From Acidobacteriota bacterium (GTDB taxonomy: Bacteria; Acidobacteriota; Blastocatellia; RBC074): a stretch of DNA of 64,000 nucleotides. Positions 2,377-64,000 of this stretch are shown in pieces. How positions within the stretch are numbered: position 1 is the first letter of the stretch; each line of letters begins with the position of its first letter. The notes under the pieces are model-generated. The model did no database searches. It saw only the letters and a program-made list of their open reading frames with translations, and was not told the origin of the DNA. The stretch is taken from NCBI GenBank assembly GCA_016196035.1, contig JACPYM010000060.1, positions 1-64,000 on the forward strand, read 5' to 3'. The position numbers were made by a program, and so were the translations under genes.

Positions 2377-3881
2377 GCACGGTCATCAGGATCGCGGCGC
2401 GCCGCAGCGTCCTGGCGCGCTTGCAAGCCGCGCTCGTGGGCGCGGCCTTGCAACAAGCGCAGCCAGACCTGACGATCAACTATCAGTTTCGCGCTTCCCT
2501 CGGCGATCAGCGGCCTGACGAACCGTTGTGGCAAATGCCTGAAAAAGGTGTGTTCACCGAAGATTTGCGCGCCGAGTTGTTGGCCGGGCGCTGCGATCTG
2601 GTCGTGCATTCGTGGAAGGATTTGCCCATCGAAGAGCATCCGCAAACCTGCCTTGCCGCCACGTTGCCGCGCGCCGATCAACGCGATTTGTTGTTGGTGA
2701 ACGCCAAACGTTGGGAACGTGTGCGCGCGCATGGCAGCTTCGCCGTGCTGACTTCGTCGCCGCGCCGCGCCCAGAATTTGCGCGACTTGCTGCCCGCCGC
2801 CTTGCCCGCCTCCATCCGGCACCTCGAATTCAAACCCGTGCGCGGCAGCATTCAGACGCGCGTGGAGAAGCTGTTCACCGAAGACGCCGCAGGCCTGATC
2901 ATCGCCAAGGCCGCGCTTGATCGGTTGCTTGAAACAGATGTCGTCGAATTCGCCGAGTCACGTGACGAGTTGCGCGCGGCGCTCGGCCAATGTCATTGGA
3001 TGGTCTTGCCGTTGCGCTGGAATCCGACGGCGCCGGGACAGGGCGCGCTCGCCCTCGAAGCCCGCCGCGCGGACACGGATTTGCTCGCCCGCTTACAGGC
3101 AATCAATTGCGCTGAAACTTACGCCGCCGTCGAGCGCGAACGCGCGATCTTGCGTGCCCACGGTGGCGGCTGCCATCAGGCCATTGGCGCGAGCGTACTG
3201 CAACGACCTTACGGCGAAATCACCTTTGTGCGCGGCTTGCGCCAGGACGGTGAACCGTTGCAAACCGCAGCGTTGCGACCCGCGCGACCTTATCCGCCCA
3301 AAGTTGGCGCACAGGCGTTGTGGCCGTTGCGCCGCGAACAAAATCATTGGTTTGTGCGTGAGGCTCTGCCCGTGAGCGAGCCGCCGGGGCAGCCGCCGTT
3401 GTGGATTGCCAAAGACAGTGCGCTGCCAGCGGATTGGGTTGTGCCACCAACGCAATTGATTTGGGTGAGTGGCTGGGAGACGTGGCGCAAATTGGCCGCG
3501 CGCGGCATCTGGGTCAACGGCAGCGCCGAGGGTTTGGGTGAGCAGGAAAACCCGCGCATTGCGGCGCTGCCTGGCCGTGCGCCCGCATGGTTGAAGCTCA
3601 CCCACGCTGAAAGCGATACGGCGGGCGGGATGAAAACCTTGGCAACGTACCGCTTATTGCCAGACGCCGCCGCGCCGACTTGGCAGCAATTCGAGCAAGT
3701 CGAATACTGTTACTGGTCGAGCGGGTCGGCCTTTCAACGCGCGCTGGAACTCTATCCGGCCTTGCGCAACCGCGTGCATTTTTGCGGGCCGGGCGCTTCG
3801 CCAGCTACGCTACGCGCGGCAGGCGTGGAACCGCACATCTGTCTTGACCATGAGCATTGGCTGGGAGCATTGGCTGGCTGA
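2367..3881 (+). CDS. hemC: Porphobilinogen deaminase fused to a uroporphyrinogen-III synthase-like domain
   Basis: Residues 1 to about 300 are hydroxymethylbilane synthase, which joins four porphobilinogens. The catalytic Asp85 lies in HSWKDLP and the dipyrromethane cofactor is held by Cys269 in GGGCHQAIGA. The remaining 200 residues, with the segment RKLAARGIWVNG and a glycine-rich end, fit a divergent HemD domain that would close the ring to uroporphyrinogen III; this second assignment is less certain. A GTG at 2367 lies 4 bases after GGGAGG at 2357-2362, and another GTG at 2373 overlaps the hemA stop as GTGA. Either start implies translational coupling to hemA. Confidence 0.85.
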   Translation: MRVSTVIRIAARRSVLARLQAALVGAALQQAQPDLTINYQFRASLGDQRPDEPLWQMPEKGVFTEDLRAELLAGRCDLVVHSWKDLPIEEHPQTCLAATLPRADQRDLLLVNAKRWERVRAHGSFAVLTSSPRRAQNLRDLLPAALPASIRHLEFKPVRGSIQTRVEKLFTEDAAGLIIAKAALDRLLETDVVEFAESRDELRAALGQCHWMVLPLRWNPTAPGQGALALEARRADTDLLARLQAINCAETYAAVERERAILRAHGGGCHQAIGASVLQRPYGEITFVRGLRQDGEPLQTAALRPARPYPPKVGAQALWPLRREQNHWFVREALPVSEPPGQPPLWIAKDSALPADWVVPPTQLIWVSGWETWRKLAARGIWVNGSAEGLGEQENPRIAALPGRAPAWLKLTHAESDTAGGMKTLATYRLLPDAAAPTWQQFEQVEYCYWSSGSAFQRALELYPALRNRVHFCGPGASPATLRAAGVEPHICLDHEHWLGALAG

Positions 3882-57146: not shown

Positions 57147-60137
57147 TCACTTCAATTTCAACAGCCAAATGTCGGCGTCGCTGCTAACCTCGGTGAAATA
57201 GATTTGCCGGTTATTGCGTGAGATGGCTTGAGTGCCAATTTGATTAGGCTGTTTGAGGGCATGAATTTGTTGCGGTTTTTGGCCCGTGCGGTCGAATAGG
57301 TAAAGCGCATTCCCTTCCTTAAAAAGCAACCGCCGACTGTCATTTAGCCAAACGGGGTAGCTGCCTAAATCAGTGAGCCGTTCATAACGCTGCTGGGCGA
57401 CGGAATAAACGACAATGCCGCGCCGTTGCTGTTCTGGCAGGGGCGGCTGCCAGCCCGCCAGAGACTGACCATTCGGCGACCACTCCCAAGGTAAAAATCC
57501 TGGCACAGGCTGGCCCGGCAACACTTGCGGCGTTTGCGCAGCGCCTGGCCGGTCGGCGTCAATGACGTAAGAATTGACGTTGCGGATTTGATAAAGCAGC
57601 TTGCGGCTATCGGGCGACCAGACCGGTGCGATCACTTCCTTGCCCGGCTCATCAGTCATTTGCGCCAGACCGGAGCCATCGGGCCTGACTTTCCAGATTT
57701 CATATTTGCCACTACGATCCGAAATAAAAGCGATCCAGCGACCGTCCGGCGACCAGCGCGGCATGATGTCCTGGGCGGCGTCATCGGTGAGCCGTTGTAA
57801 GGGCGCGCCTGAGAGACTGGCCGTGAAAAGGTCTTGCTGCGGTTCGCCGCGAGTCAAATACACAAAACTCTTTTCATCGGGCACCAGCGAGAAGAGCGCG
57901 TAGCGTTTCAAGCCTTGCGTCAACGGTGTGGCCGCGCCGTTCACCCGGCCTTTGACCGGGTCGAAACCGATTTGCCAGAGGTTTTCGCTGCGCGTGGATT
58001 GACCGTAAACCAGCGTGCTGCCGTTGCGGGCAAAGCTGACATATTGGCAATTGTTCGACGGCAACGTTGCCGGTTCGAGCGCGCCCCACAAACGGCCCGT
58101 GCTTTCGTCAAGCGCCACGCGCCAGAGATTCATCTCACCGCCGCGATTGCTCAGAAAGTACAGGTACGCGCCATCGGGCGACCAGACCGGGTTCCAGTCA
58201 ATGAAGGCGTCATCGGTCACCGGTGTTGGTTCGCCCCCGCTGGCGGCGACCGTCCAGATGTCGCGGTGGCCGCCTTTCTGTTCGCCCCAAAAGGCGAGGC
58301 GCTGGCCGTGTGGCGACCAATTGGGTTGCACGGCGTCGTGCGCGCTAATCACGCGGCTTGCGTGGGTTGTCAGGTTGACGGCCCACAGGCGGCTGGCGCT
58401 GGGATAGGTGTTGCGACCTTCGTAATCCCAGATGTTGTCATCGGCCAGCGCCACCTCGCGTCCGTCGGGCGACCAGGCGGGGTTGAAGCCAGTGTTGCTC
58501 AGTTGCGTGACGTTGCCGCCATCGCTATTCATCACGAAAATGCCGCCGCCATTGCGATTGGAGCGAAACGCGATCTGCGTGCCGTCAGGCGAGTAAGCTG
58601 GTTGGAGTTCAACGCTCGCCGTGCCCTCGGTCAGATTGGTTGCCGTGCGCGCGTTGGCGGCTTGGCGGTAAATATCCCAATTCCCATTGTGACGGCTGGC
58701 AAAAACGACGCTTTGGCCATCGGGCGCGAGGCTGGGGTAAAGCTCTTGGCCGGGCATATCCGTCAGCTTACGCGCGTCGGCGGAGTTGAAGGCCAGCCGC
58801 GCAGCTTGAGTTGCACGGCGCGTTTGCCAAAGCCCGAAACCAAGCAGACCCAGCAATGCCAACGCCGCCGCCCAGGCTGCCTGTTTGCGCCAGCGTGAGG
58901 CGGGCCTGCCTTGCAATGATTGTTCAAACTGTTCAAGCGCGCCGCGCAACTCTGCCGCGCTCTGGTAACGCCGATCAGGCTCTTTGGCCAACGCGCGCGC
59001 CACGATGCGTGCCAGGGCCGGGTCGGGCAGGCAGGTCAAATCCGCTTCGCCGTGCAGGATGGCTTGGCTGCGCGCGGCCTCGTTGCTGCCCGTGAATGGA
59101 CGTGTGCCGGTGAGCAACTCATATAGCACGACGCCCAGGCTGAAGATGTCCGTGCGCGCATCCAGTTCTGCGCGGCGCGCCTGTTCGGGGGACAGATAAG
59201 CGAGCGTGCCCAGCAACACTGCGGGGTCTGTGAGGGATTGGAGATTGGGGATTGGAGATTGGGGATTGGAGATTGGGGATTGGAGATTGGGGATTGGGGA
59301 TTGGGGATTTGGGATTGGAGATTGGGGATTGGAGCTTGGAGGTTGGAGATTGGGGATCGGAAATTGGGGGTGAGCTTTCATCTGTAGCCCGTCATCCGCC
59401 AACTTCACTCTGTCATCTCCAATCCCCAATCTCCAAGCTCCAAGCTCCGATCCCGCAGGTTTTGCCAGGCCGAAATCGAGCACTTTGACCAAACCGTCCG
59501 GGCGAACCATCACATTCTCTGGCTTGATGTCGCGGTGGATGATGCCGGCGGTGTGCGCGGCGCCGAGGGCGTCGGCAATCTGTCCGGCGATCTTCACACT
59601 TTCGCGCCAGGGCAGGCGGCCAGCCGCCAGTTTTTGCCGCAGCGTCTGGCCCGCGATGTGTTCGGCGGCGATGAAATGCGTCCCGGCGTCTTCGCCGATT
59701 TCATAAATCGTGAGGATGTTGGGATGGTTGAGCGCCGAGATCGCGCGCGCTTCACGCGTGAAGCGTTGTACCCACGCAGCGTCCTGGCCGAATTGCGCGG
59801 GCAACAGCTTCAGCGCAATCTGGCGTTCCAGCCGGGGGTCATGCGCCAAGTAGACCTCGCCCATCCCGCCGGTACCCAGGACTGACAAGATTTCGTAATG
59901 TGCCACGCGCTGACCCGGTGCGCGTGGCGTCGTGGCCGTCAGGCCGAAGCTGTCAGCGGCGGGTGTTTCCAGAAAGCTATTGGCTGCCTGAAAGGAGGCG
60001 AGCAGCTTTTCGACTTCTTGTTGTAACTGCGGGTCAGCGGCGCAGGCCTGGCTGACAAAGGCGGCGCGCGCACTGGCCGGACGTTCGAGCGCGGCTTGGA
60101 AAAGGGTTTCAAGTTGTTGCCAGTGGTCGGTGGTCAT
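57147..60137 (-). CDS. Serine/threonine kinase with a TolB-like propeller
   Basis: The 996-residue protein has a kinase domain at residues 85-420 ([42 protein letters not shown]), a membrane helix near 440 ([19 protein letters not shown]) and an extracellular six-bladed PD40/TolB-like propeller from about 470 on. It is a membrane receptor kinase that probably senses an external or periplasmic signal. Oddly, the activation loop between DFG and SPEQ is lengthened by about 75 residues of SPIPNPQ repeats, encoded by heptad DNA repeats. Kinase activity may be altered. Pairs with the ECF gene upstream. Confidence 0.9.
59236..59455. repeat. Heptad repeat array in the kinase activation loop
   Basis: GATTGGG, GATTGGA and close variants recur at seven-base steps over 59236-59370 and inverted at 59414-59450. 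In protein it gives PNPQSPI-type heptapeptides, since 21 bases equal seven codons. Confidence 0.92.
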
Positions 60138-60200: not shown

Positions 60201-60770
60201 TCATTCGCGGTTGAGCAATTGATAAAGCCACGCCTTGGCCATGTTCCAATCGCGGATAACGGTTTGCGGCGAAATGTCCAGCACCTGCGCCGTCTCCTCG
60301 ACACTCAGTCCGCCAAAGTAGCGCAATTCGACGACGCGGCTTTTGCGCTCATCCAACGCCGCCAGACTTTGCAAGGCATCATCGAGTGCGACCACTTCGG
60401 CGGCGCGTGCTTGACCGTAATTCAGCGCTTCATCCAATGAAAGTTTGACCGCGCCGCCGCCACGTTTGGCGCGCTGGTTGGCTTTGGCGTGGTCTACCAA
60501 AATGCGCCGCATCATCTGGGCCGCGACGCCGAAAAAGTGCGCGCGGTTTTGCCATTCGACCTGCGTTTGATCAATCAGTCGCAAGTACGCCTCGTGCACC
60601 AGCGCCGTCGGTTGCAGCGTATGACCGGGGTCTTCCGTCCGCAAATAGCGCGCCGCCATTTGACGCAATTCCTGATAGACCGCCGGAATCAGCCGCTCCA
60701 ACGCAGCCGCATCGCCCGTGCGCCAGGCGCGTAATTGGTCGGTGATCTGATTGGGTGCGATCAGTTCCAT
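60201..60770 (-). CDS. ECF RNA polymerase sigma factor (TIGR02999-like)
   Basis: The 189-residue protein has sigma-70 regions 2 (AARYLRTEDPGHTLQPTALVHEAYLRL; quoted as HTLQPTALVHEAYLRL) and 4 (LRYFGGLSVEETAQVLDISPQTV). It lacks an anti-sigma neighbour; the adjacent Ser/Thr kinase is the usual partner for this group, in which phosphorylation is thought to control the sigma factor. Confidence 0.92.
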   Translation of the reverse strand: MELIAPNQITDQLRAWRTGDAAALERLIPAVYQELRQMAARYLRTEDPGHTLQPTALVHEAYLRLIDQTQVEWQNRAHFFGVAAQMMRRILVDHAKANQRAKRGGGAVKLSLDEALNYGQARAAEVVALDDALQSLAALDERKSRVVELRYFGGLSVEETAQVLDISPQTVIRDWNMAKAWLYQLLNRE

Positions 60771-60961
60771 CTTGCAGGTGGCAGCGTAACGGGGGAGGAC
60801 GCAAAAAAATTCTCAGGCGTTGGGAGTTTTTACGCCCGTTTGTCGCGTTATTCAACAGCCGCAAAAAATCCGGCTTCCGGGAAGCGCAAGTGCCGGTCAC
60901 CGTTTATCGCAATTAAGTTTTGCGGGCTTTGGTTGGGTTTTGTCGGGAAGGACATTGTGAG
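60771..60961. other. Divergent spacer, ECF to Crp/Fnr gene
   Basis: No clear gene. The sequence CGCAATTAAGTTTTGCG (around 60910-60926) is an imperfect dyad. GAAGGA at about 60947 serves the Crp/Fnr gene. No consensus promoter is visible, which would fit recognition by an alternative sigma factor. Confidence 0.45.
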
Positions 60962-61681
60962 ATGGCAGGAATACATTTGAAACCGGAGCGGGCTGACGCC
61001 AATCTGCCGAATTGCTTGAGCCAATTTGCGCTCTGGCGCGATCTGGCGGCGGCGGATTTGCGCCAGGTCAGTGAGCGGTTGCATAGCAAGATATTCCCCG
61101 CCAGCACACCGCTGATGAGCGCCGAACAGCCGGGCGAGGTTGTCTACTTCATCGCCAGCGGCACGGTCAAAGTCCACGTCGAACAGCCGGATGGCCGGGA
61201 CGTGCTGATCGCGATCCTCGGCCCCGGTGAAATCGTCGGCGAACTCAGCGTGTTGGATTGCGCGTTACGCTCTGCCAGCGTGCTGACACTGGAAGCGTCC
61301 CAGTTGCTCTGGGCTGATGCCGCGACGTTCAAGCGCTGGTTGAGAACCATGCCGCCGTTGGCCCACAACCTGGCGGCAATCCTGGCGGCGCGCTTGCGCC
61401 AGGCTAACGAACAGATTCAAACGCTGGCCGCGCTCGATACCGAAGGCCGCGTCGCGCACCAACTGGTCGCCTTTGCCGAAAAGTACGGCCAGCCGCGCCC
61501 GGACAATGCGATCTACATCCCGATTCGCCTGACCCAGAGCGACATCGCCGCGCTGGTGGGCGCGACGCGCGAACACACGAATAAGATTTTGGTGTCATAC
61601 AAAGAGCGCGGCTACCTCTCGACCAACCAGCAATATCATTTCACGCTGCACAATCCGCGCGCGCTGGCGCAACGCTGTTGA
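60962..61681 (+). CDS. Crp/Fnr-family transcription regulator
   Basis: The 239-residue protein has an N-terminal cyclic-nucleotide-type beta-roll (GEVVYFIASGTVKVHVEQPDGRDVLIAILGPGEIVGELSVLD; quoted as LGPGEIVGELSVLD) and a C-terminal winged helix (RLTQSDIAALVGATREHTNKILVSYKERGY; quoted as TQSDIAALVGATREHTNK). It lacks the four N-terminal cysteines of true FNR. Binds DNA as a dimer; the effector is unknown. Lies just upstream of the protease gene and likely regulates nearby secreted proteins. Confidence 0.9.
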   Translation: MAGIHLKPERADANLPNCLSQFALWRDLAAADLRQVSERLHSKIFPASTPLMSAEQPGEVVYFIASGTVKVHVEQPDGRDVLIAILGPGEIVGELSVLDCALRSASVLTLEASQLLWADAATFKRWLRTMPPLAHNLAAILAARLRQANEQIQTLAALDTEGRVAHQLVAFAEKYGQPRPDNAIYIPIRLTQSDIAALVGATREHTNKILVSYKERGYLSTNQQYHFTLHNPRALAQRC

Positions 61682-61769
61682 AGCTTGGCAAAGGTAGGCG
61701 GCGAGCGGCCGGCTGACGAGCAGCAGAGTTCGTCCGCCGGCCTTTTCGTTTTTTGCGCCGCCGCTTGCC

Positions 61770-61814
61770 GCTGTAAGCGATCTTGCAGCCGCGCTGTAAG
61801 CACTCTCGCAGCCG
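61770..61814 (+). promoter_or_regulatory. Tandem dyads before the protease gene
   Basis: Two dyads, GCTGTAAG-CGAT-CTTGCAGC (61770-61789) and GCTGTAAG-CACT-CTCGCAGC (61793-61812), start exactly 23 bp apart. They lie about 100 bp before the protease ATG. The same pair recurs at 63548-63592. Confidence 0.75.
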
Positions 61815-61912
61815 AATTCCTGCCACCCGCTTATCGTTCCGTCAACGCACAACGAGATTGCCACGGCGGCAGTCTTCACCCGAAACAAAGACGAATGAAA
61901 AGGAGAGCGGAA

Positions 61913-62860
61913 ATGAAACAACTGAATTTGAAAGCGGCGCTAAACAACCATCACGGCCGGCGACTGAGCTTGATGCTCAGCTTGATGCTGGCGCTGACCG
62001 ACGCGGCGTATGGCCCGCGCGGCCTGAGCAATTTGACCATCCAAGCCACCGGCAGCGCGGCGGCCTGTGCCAACGTGTGCACCAACAGCCAGATGATCAT
62101 CGGCTGTGACGACCGCGTGCAGAAAGCGGCCAACGTGAACGGTGCGGCCACCTCGCCCTGGCGGCACATCGGGCGGCTGTCGAACGGTTGCACCGGCACG
62201 CTGATCGCCGACCGCTGGGTGTTGACGGCGGCGCATTGCGTGGCGAATCAGGCCGGCAACCCCATCGGCTTTTCATTGGCGCAATCCGCCAACTCCAATT
62301 GCGGGCGCCCATACGGGACGGTTTATGGCATGGCCGCTTACATCCCGACGGCGTATGCGGGGACCAATTCGCAAACCGACCGCTCGTTTGATTACGCCAT
62401 GATCAAGCTGGCCGCGCCGATTCCCGGCGCGACGCCGATGGCGTTTGATTACCTGTCGTGGAATACCGTGTCACCCCTGGGCAAATACTCGATCGGTTAT
62501 CCGAGCGTCACCAAACCCACCGGCACAGTGTGGAGCACAGGCACGAGCGAGTTCGGCCCCAGCCCCAACCGTTGGCTCGACAACGGCGCAAGCGGCTTGC
62601 TGGAATTGGACACCGACGGCGAAGGCGGCCAGAGCGGTTCGCCGGTGTACGTGATTCACAACAACGTGCGCAAAGTCATCGCCGTGCTGATCGGCAGCCC
62701 GGTCAGCGCCTGTCAGGACGGCCACATCTGGGCCTCGCGGCTCACCTCGGGCGCGGTCGAACACCTTCAAAACAAAATGGCCCCGAATGTGCTCGACTTT
62801 TTCTGGCAAGAGATTGATCTGAATTACCTGAACGCCGTGCCGCCGCCGAACTGCCAATAA
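61913..62860 (+). CDS. Secreted trypsin/V8-like serine protease
   Basis: From the ATG at 61913 (after AAGGAGA) a signal peptide is followed by an S1-fold protease. The catalytic triad appears as His in TAAHC, Asp in FDYAMIKL and Ser in GGQSGSPVY. Several cysteines suggest disulfides. The length of 315 residues fits secreted glutamyl-endopeptidase-like enzymes. Expression may depend on the tandem dyads upstream. Confidence 0.9.
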   Translation: MKQLNLKAALNNHHGRRLSLMLSLMLALTDAAYGPRGLSNLTIQATGSAAACANVCTNSQMIIGCDDRVQKAANVNGAATSPWRHIGRLSNGCTGTLIADRWVLTAAHCVANQAGNPIGFSLAQSANSNCGRPYGTVYGMAAYIPTAYAGTNSQTDRSFDYAMIKLAAPIPGATPMAFDYLSWNTVSPLGKYSIGYPSVTKPTGTVWSTGTSEFGPSPNRWLDNGASGLLELDTDGEGGQSGSPVYVIHNNVRKVIAVLIGSPVSACQDGHIWASRLTSGAVEHLQNKMAPNVLDFFWQEIDLNYLNAVPPPNCQ

Positions 62861-62893
62861 TGATCCCGCGTGGACAAGCAAGGAGAGACCGAC

Positions 62894-63397
62894 ATGAAAC
62901 CGTTCCTGATGACCAGCACGATCACGCTGTTATTGGCGCTGCTGACGCTGAGCGCCGCCGCGCAAACGAATCCGCAAGCCGGCGGCGAGACTCAAGCGCT
63001 GGCGCTCGAAGTAAAAAAACTGCGGCTGGAACTGCTGCAACAGAAACTCGAATTTCAGGATTGGAAGATTGCGCAACTCAACCGCGAATTGCGCCAGGCC
63101 CAAACCGAGCAACAACGGCTGGAAGAGGAAGAGCGCGCCATCCAGCAAGAACTGAGCGCGCTCGAACAACAACTGGCGCAGCACCCGCCCGCCGGCAATG
63201 GGCGGGTCAGCGAAGAGGAAGCCGTCAAAACCGATTTGCACCAAAACCGCTGGCCCAAGCTGCGCGCCCGTCAACAACCGGTGTTGCAAATGCTGGCCGA
63301 ATTGAGCGGCCAGTTGGAACGCGAGCAAGCGGCCCAACGCCAGTTGGCCGAACAGGCGCAACGGCTCAACGCCGAGTTGCGCCGCATTACGCAATGA
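62894..63397 (+). CDS. Secreted coiled-coil protein
   Basis: A signal peptide (FLMTSTITLLLALLTLSAAAQ) is followed by 120 residues of near-continuous heptad coiled coil (ALEVKKLRLELLQQKLEFQDWK, quoted as LELLQQKLEFQDWK). It lies 33 bp after the protease and may be co-transcribed with it. Function unknown. Confidence 0.75.
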   Translation: MKPFLMTSTITLLLALLTLSAAAQTNPQAGGETQALALEVKKLRLELLQQKLEFQDWKIAQLNRELRQAQTEQQRLEEEERAIQQELSALEQQLAQHPPAGNGRVSEEEAVKTDLHQNRWPKLRARQQPVLQMLAELSGQLEREQAAQRQLAEQAQRLNAELRRITQ

Positions 63398-63445
63398 CCG
63401 TTGCGCTAGGTAATGCCAGGTAATGACGAATACGCATCCAGCGTG

Positions 63446-63489
63446 AATGAAACACGGCGCAAGGCTTTGCTCTTGCGCCGTGTTTCATT
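63446..63489 (+). terminator. Hairpin after the coiled-coil gene
   Basis: AATGAAACACGGCGCAAG (63446-63463) pairs perfectly with 63472-63489 with an 8-base loop. Followed by TTGCGCGGG, so not a strong T run. Confidence 0.7.
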
Positions 63490-63547
63490 TGCGCGGGAAG
63501 TTTCGCGTTTGGCTTGGCGGCGCGGCGTCACGGCGCGTGCGTCAAGC

Positions 63548-63592
63548 GCTGTAAGCAATCTTGCAGCCGACTTGTAAGCAACCTCGCTGCCC
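63548..63592 (+). promoter_or_regulatory. Tandem dyads before the last gene
   Basis: GCTGTAAG-CAAT-CTTGCAGC and a weaker CTTGTAAG-CAAC-CTCGCTGC follow each other at the same 23-bp step as at 61770. They lie about 120-165 bp before the ATG at 63714. Confidence 0.7.
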
Positions 63593-63713
63593 ACGAGGCG
63601 CACTGCCGTTACCTTGTCAGCCTCGGAGAGAGAAACCAACACTTGCAGTGCCGCGCGGAAACGGGCGTGACCGGGTTCAGGCGCACTGCTTCATCGAAAA
63701 AGGAGACGCAAAA

Positions 63714-64000
63714 ATGCAATTCACCAATCGTCGCAACCAGAGGTTTTGGATTATCACCGCCTGCGCGTTTTGCACGCTGGTGTTCAGCGCCGCCACCTTC
63801 TTCCCCGCGTTGACCGGCAGCGCGGCAGGCCTGGCCGCGCCTGGCAGCGCCGCGCCTGGCAACGAGCAAACTATTTTGCAATTGCAGACGCTTGATCCAA
63901 CTACCGGTGCGCTACTTTCAACGAGCGTGACGAATCACCAGGGTTCTTTCACCGGTTACAATTTTGTGCGCCAATACGCTTACGGCAGCCAGGCCTTCCT
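63714..64000 (+). CDS. Secreted protein, N-terminal part
   Basis: An ATG at 63714 after AAAAAGGAGACG opens a frame that is still open at the window end. The start MQFTNRRNQRFWIITACAFC is basic and then hydrophobic (CTLVFSAATFFPALTG), so it is a signal peptide or anchor. The following 60 residues are Ala/Gly/Thr-rich with GSFTGYNFVRQYAYGSQAF, a beta-type pattern. The family cannot be told from this fragment. Confidence 0.7.
   Translation, partial: MQFTNRRNQRFWIITACAFCTLVFSAATFFPALTGSAAGLAAPGSAAPGNEQTILQLQTLDPTTGALLSTSVTNHQGSFTGYNFVRQYAYGSQAF

Follow-up and report, generated by a model that had tools for sequence, protein, structure and literature searches.

Tandem CRP-type dyads at a fixed 23-bp step as predicted sites of an adjacent Crp-family regulator of exported-protein genes in an acidobacterial genome

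In a 64,000-nt window of acidobacterial DNA, which is the whole stretch that we analyzed, a tandem pair of dyads was found twice downstream of a gene for a Crp-family regulator, each time upstream of a unit that encodes exported proteins. These paired dyads are very probably the sites of the adjacent Crp, two dimers of which would activate both exported-protein units. We infer binding by this particular regulator, activation rather than repression, the transcription start sites and a cyclic-nucleotide trigger. In the proposed mechanism, two Crp dimers would lie side by side, one on a strong dyad centered at −64.5 and the other on a weak dyad at −41.5. The strong upstream dyad would serve as the anchor and the weak dyad would set the second dimer against RNA polymerase, so that both dimers would jointly recruit the polymerase to a promoter carrying a −10 box and no −35 box, switching on unit 1 (the protease and the coiled-coil protein) and unit 2 (the beta-lactamase-domain protein). 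The order of elements at the locus is crp, hairpin, site 1, protease gene, coiled-coil gene, hairpin, site 2 and beta-lactamase-domain gene (Table 1).

Table 1 Positions of the regulator, its predicted sites and the neighboring features in the window
Feature	Position	Strand	Details
ECF sigma factor gene, divergent from crp	60201..60770	-	TIGR02999; not regarded as regulating the dyads
Crp-family regulator, cNMP-binding domain and Crp HTH; proposed activator	60962..61681	+	PF00027 5.7e-17, PF13545 2.9e-13
Hairpin with T-rich tail, downstream of crp and upstream of site 1	61706..61755	+	fold of 61700-61760, -32.8 kcal/mol
Dyad 1 (strong), tandem site 1	61772..61787	+	TGTAA-N6-TTGCA, TGTAAGCGATCTTGCA; predicted center -64.5
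Dyad 2 (weak), tandem site 1	61795..61810	+	TGTAAGCACTCTCGCA; predicted center -41.5
Predicted -10 box TATCGT, site 1	61832..61837	+	TAnnnT near-invariant at this offset in 12 sites; start predicted near 61844
Target 1, exported trypsin-like serine protease	61913..62860	+	PF00089 1.1e-10; hydrophobic N-terminus
Target unit 1, second gene, for a coiled-coil-like exported protein	62894..63397	+	homologue downstream of the G006:C64 site
Long near-perfect hairpin separating the two target units	63438..63497	+	fold of 63435-63500, -47.1 kcal/mol
Dyad 1 (strong), tandem site 2	63550..63565	+	TGTAAGCAATCTTGCA
Dyad 2 (weak), tandem site 2	63573..63588	+	TGTAAGCAACCTCGCT
Predicted -10 box TACCTT, site 2	63610..63615	+	same offset as site 1; start predicted near 63622
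Target 2 (start), exported protein with beta-lactamase-type serine hydrolase domain	63714..64000	+	PF00144 7.5e-23

The two tandem pairs of the original prediction, each with a weaker second copy further on, were confirmed at 61772/61795 and 63550/63573, and the step from dyad 1 to dyad 2 was exactly 23 bp in both. Their description as identical held for the halves of the strong dyads and failed for the second copies, which differ between the two sites. When the 9.59-Mb genome was searched with the pair pattern at ≤3 mismatches, the only matches were the two window sites; the reversed control of the pattern gave 0 matches in the same genome at 3 mismatches. The single dyad at 2 mismatches was found 15 times against 7.8 expected by chance. 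A single dyad being this common by chance, the signal resides in the pair and not in the dyad, and the genome search with single dyads was dropped as too noisy.

Close orthologues of the regulator, 49−75% identical, were found in the related genomes G001 (of the same genus), G003, G006, G008, G023 and G031. Most of these crp genes, in all six genomes and at two loci in G008, were followed directly by a pair with the 23-bp step. The relatives' pairs consist of a classic TGTGA-N6-TCACA dyad followed by a weaker copy, with which the TGTAA-N6-TTGCA of the window aligns; the earlier reading of the units as FNR-type dyads with a 4-bp spacer was a matter of register, and these are CRP-class sites. 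Three pairs occur at one G008 locus and two in G031, and each of them precedes a different gene or group of genes. The pair was absent at two full-length crp paralogues (in G006 and G008) and at a crp fragment of G006, and no tandem site was present near the distant Crp homologues of Chloroflexota and Actinomycetota (L105−L108). The two window sites and ten from other genomes aligned gap-free over 80 bp, with the strongest columns at TGT.A and in the right-hand half of dyad 1, at G..A and T within dyad 2, and at T-A-n-n-n-T in columns 67−72; the TGT.A and TA...T columns were invariant or nearly so across the 12 sites. Elsewhere in this genome (G000), a tandem dyad of divergent sequence, accompanied by a −10-like box, lies on the opposite strand at C59:115907−115976, just after the Crp paralogue of contig C59.

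In all 12 aligned sites, including both window sites, the −10 box (TAnnnT) was located 29.5 bp past the center of dyad 2. The predicted starts assume that transcription begins ~7 bp after this box, which places the dyad centers at −64.5 (strong) and −41.5 (weak). By the predicted position of the −10 box only, the sites conform to tandem class II/III CRP promoters, with one dyad near −41.5 and another upstream, and a search of the region for sigma-70 promoters with a −35 box gave none. The predicted layout is thus one of tandem class II/III activation, with Crp at −64.5 and −41.5 and without a −35 box. The same Crp might instead repress these promoters by covering the −35 region, as dyad 2 overlaps the position that a −35 box would occupy. 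Repression is unlikely, however, because no such box is seen there and because the spacing between −41.5 and the −10 box does not vary by a single base, a pattern expected of contact with RNA polymerase rather than of plain blocking.

A held-out profile, trained on the ten sites from the other genomes with those of this genome excluded, placed the two window sites at ranks 1 and 2 in the 9.6-Mb genome (E = 1.4e-4 and 3.1e-4), and within the window these two sites were its only hits (9.2e-7 and 2e-6). With a simple weight matrix, the window sites scored 36 and 30 bits and the next place fell below zero, each of the three parts contributing by itself. Sites outside the training set were found in G009 (three), G010, G006 (three) and G001. 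The next candidate of the held-out profile, G000:C58:23078−23154 (L102; E = 0.0025), has the −10 box in place and a gene for an exported protein behind it, and may be a third member of the predicted regulon; C64:122242 is a doubtful fourth candidate (E = 0.023).

Strong sites (E below 1e-3) were present in 9 of 98 genomes, 7 of which carry a full close Crp orthologue. This co-occurrence is confounded by shared ancestry and in part circular, since the training sites had themselves come from the neighborhood of crp, but the unlinked sites of G006 (C22, C52 and C64) and G001 (C85) were blind finds. The last two of the nine genomes, G009 and G010, are fragmented assemblies in which a contig starts inside the end of crp just before the site, leaving the remnants IIVSYKERGYLS...LANRCG* and LAKRC*, respectively; the G010 remnant, only five residues long, is the weaker evidence. 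Neither strong sites nor a close Crp orthologue or its remnant were found in the remaining 89 of the 98 genomes, and in a 396-genome sample of the phylum sites occurred only in members of the same two families. At G009:C696 (L096), upstream of position 3392, a leftover 3′ end of crp is followed by a tandem site and a gene with a beta-lactamase domain, as if the tail of crp and the promoter had been copied together.

The genome contains six Crp/Fnr matches, and the R-E-K recognition residues are shared by the copy on C59, so that another paralogue might use the sites. Such use is improbable, since the sites track and adjoin the close orthologue (the C60 Crp of the window) and are absent from genomes that have only distant Crp/Fnr proteins. 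A small regulon of secreted proteins under the adjacent Crp/Fnr gene, as originally proposed, remains the predicted arrangement and is supported by the nine-genome footprint, the held-out search and the co-occurrence with Crp.

The regulator matched both PF00027 and PF13545 above cut-off, placing it in the CRP/FNR superfamily. Its scores were 90.9 bits against the NCBIfam CRP equivalog NF008732 (cut-off 266) and 36.8 bits against NCBIfam FNR (cut-off 228); judged by sequence, the protein is related to cAMP-CRP and is not its orthologue. Its N-terminal region holds one Cys, without a cysteine cluster for a 4Fe-4S center. In the nucleotide pocket, the equivalents of E72, R82 and S83 are retained, T127 is replaced by Ala and S128 by Asn, and the phosphate and ribose contacts are kept. 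T127 is the residue that reads adenine in E. coli CRP. The genome encodes one class III cyclase. The recognition helix has the pattern R-E-x-x-x-K, as in M. tuberculosis CRP, which provides the nearest solved structures (E = 2e-33). This pattern was kept in all homologues examined except the divergent copies G008:C31 (31 kb) and G006:C15 (a fragment), and the equivalents of R180, E181 and K185 were identical in every orthologue with sites.

All four left half-sites in this genome are TGTAA, not TGTGA. We rejected a change of the recognition helix as the cause, because G001 has an identical helix and yet TGTGA in its strong dyad; the TGTAA half-sites are either tolerated by the protein or belong to sites that are weaker by design. 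No CRP-like dyad consistent across relatives was found upstream of crp that would point to its autoregulation.

The neighboring ECF sigma factor had also been suggested as an activator, and the motif could be its promoter or operator, as ECF and Ser/Thr-kinase genes adjoin crp in G000, G003, G006, G008 and G031; in the window crp is divergent from both. This reading is very improbable. The sites persist at G008:C31 and in G023 without a neighboring ECF gene, which indicates that the factor is dispensable; moreover, the motif combines a dyad of the CRP type with a −10 box resembling that of sigma-70 promoters, and the intergenic region between the ECF gene and crp has a different conserved element. 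This element, GTTTTTAC-N8-GTCGCGTTATTCAACAG at 60826−60858, is unique in the genome, is kept in G000, G001, G003, G006, G008 and G031, is absent from crp loci without an ECF gene, and is probably the promoter of either crp or the ECF gene. Within the Ser/Thr kinase gene, short tandem repeats of GGGGATTGGAGATT at 59239−59345 encode a repetitive linker (PNLQSPI...). Finally, chance or a functionless mobile repeat, which the close similarity of the two window pairs might suggest, is hardly credible for a pair that is confined to these two places in 9.6 Mb and aligns position by position, −10 box included, with sites in nine genomes, a cross-genome conservation that already contradicts it.

Most genes downstream of the sites are predicted to encode exported proteins, with a strongly hydrophobic N-terminus in 18 of 21 first downstream genes compared to 8 of 21 in a baseline that is small and uneven. 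Among their products are hydrolases of the beta-lactamase type, some of them with repeats resembling polyglycine hydrolase, together with an M23 peptidase, a beta-helix protein and an exported family, as yet unnamed, that occurs in both G031 and G006. The exceptions are the targets at G006:C13 and G001:C85, which are not exported, and the doubtful one at G008:C31. Target 2 of the window extends past its end to position 66020 of the contig (768 aa), and homologues of it follow the sites in G001 and G003. Both hairpins of the locus are likely terminators from their folding energy; neither was listed by a simple terminator scan.

As a tentative generalization, which we hold to be possible rather than probable, this Crp subfamily may be limited to two acidobacterial families and act only via obligate −64.5/−41.5 pairs with the 23-bp step. 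The pairs would then represent a promoter type dedicated to exported hydrolases that travels with the regulator gene, and the half-sites of this genome would have drifted from TGTGA to TGTAA under an unchanged recognition helix. No earlier description of such a regulon in Acidobacteriota was found in the open-access articles that were searched. The analysis offers a base-resolved prediction for an uncultured acidobacterial lineage, comprising regulator, paired sites, promoter and targets, and a starting point for learning when these organisms export proteases and hydrolases. With their fixed geometry, the pairs also provide a natural set of tandem CRP promoters for studying the cooperation of two dimers.

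Class II and class III (tandem-site) CRP-dependent promoters are known in Escherichia coli (PMC5957442, PMC5449483). The sites described here share with them the TGTGA-N6-TCACA dyads and the dimer near −41.5 covering the −35 region with a further dimer upstream, but differ in the fixed −64.5/−41.5 pair with its 23-bp step at every site, in the TGTAA variant of this genome, and in a regulon that is largely local, beside the regulator gene, whereas that of E. coli is global. CRP of M. tuberculosis (Rv3676; PDB 3d0s, 3i54) has the recognition residues R-E-x-x-N-K in common with the regulator, which differs in carrying Ala at the equivalent of E. coli T127 and in belonging to a different phylum. 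In M. tuberculosis, CRP regulates genes globally. FNR-type regulators and their sites (TTGAT-N4-ATCAA) share the superfamily and the dyad symmetry; in contrast to these, both half-sites and register are CRP-type here, and the protein has no N-terminal cysteine cluster for an iron-sulfur center. Taken together, tandem promoters of the CRP type are well known, and what is new is the regulon, the lineage and the fixed geometry.
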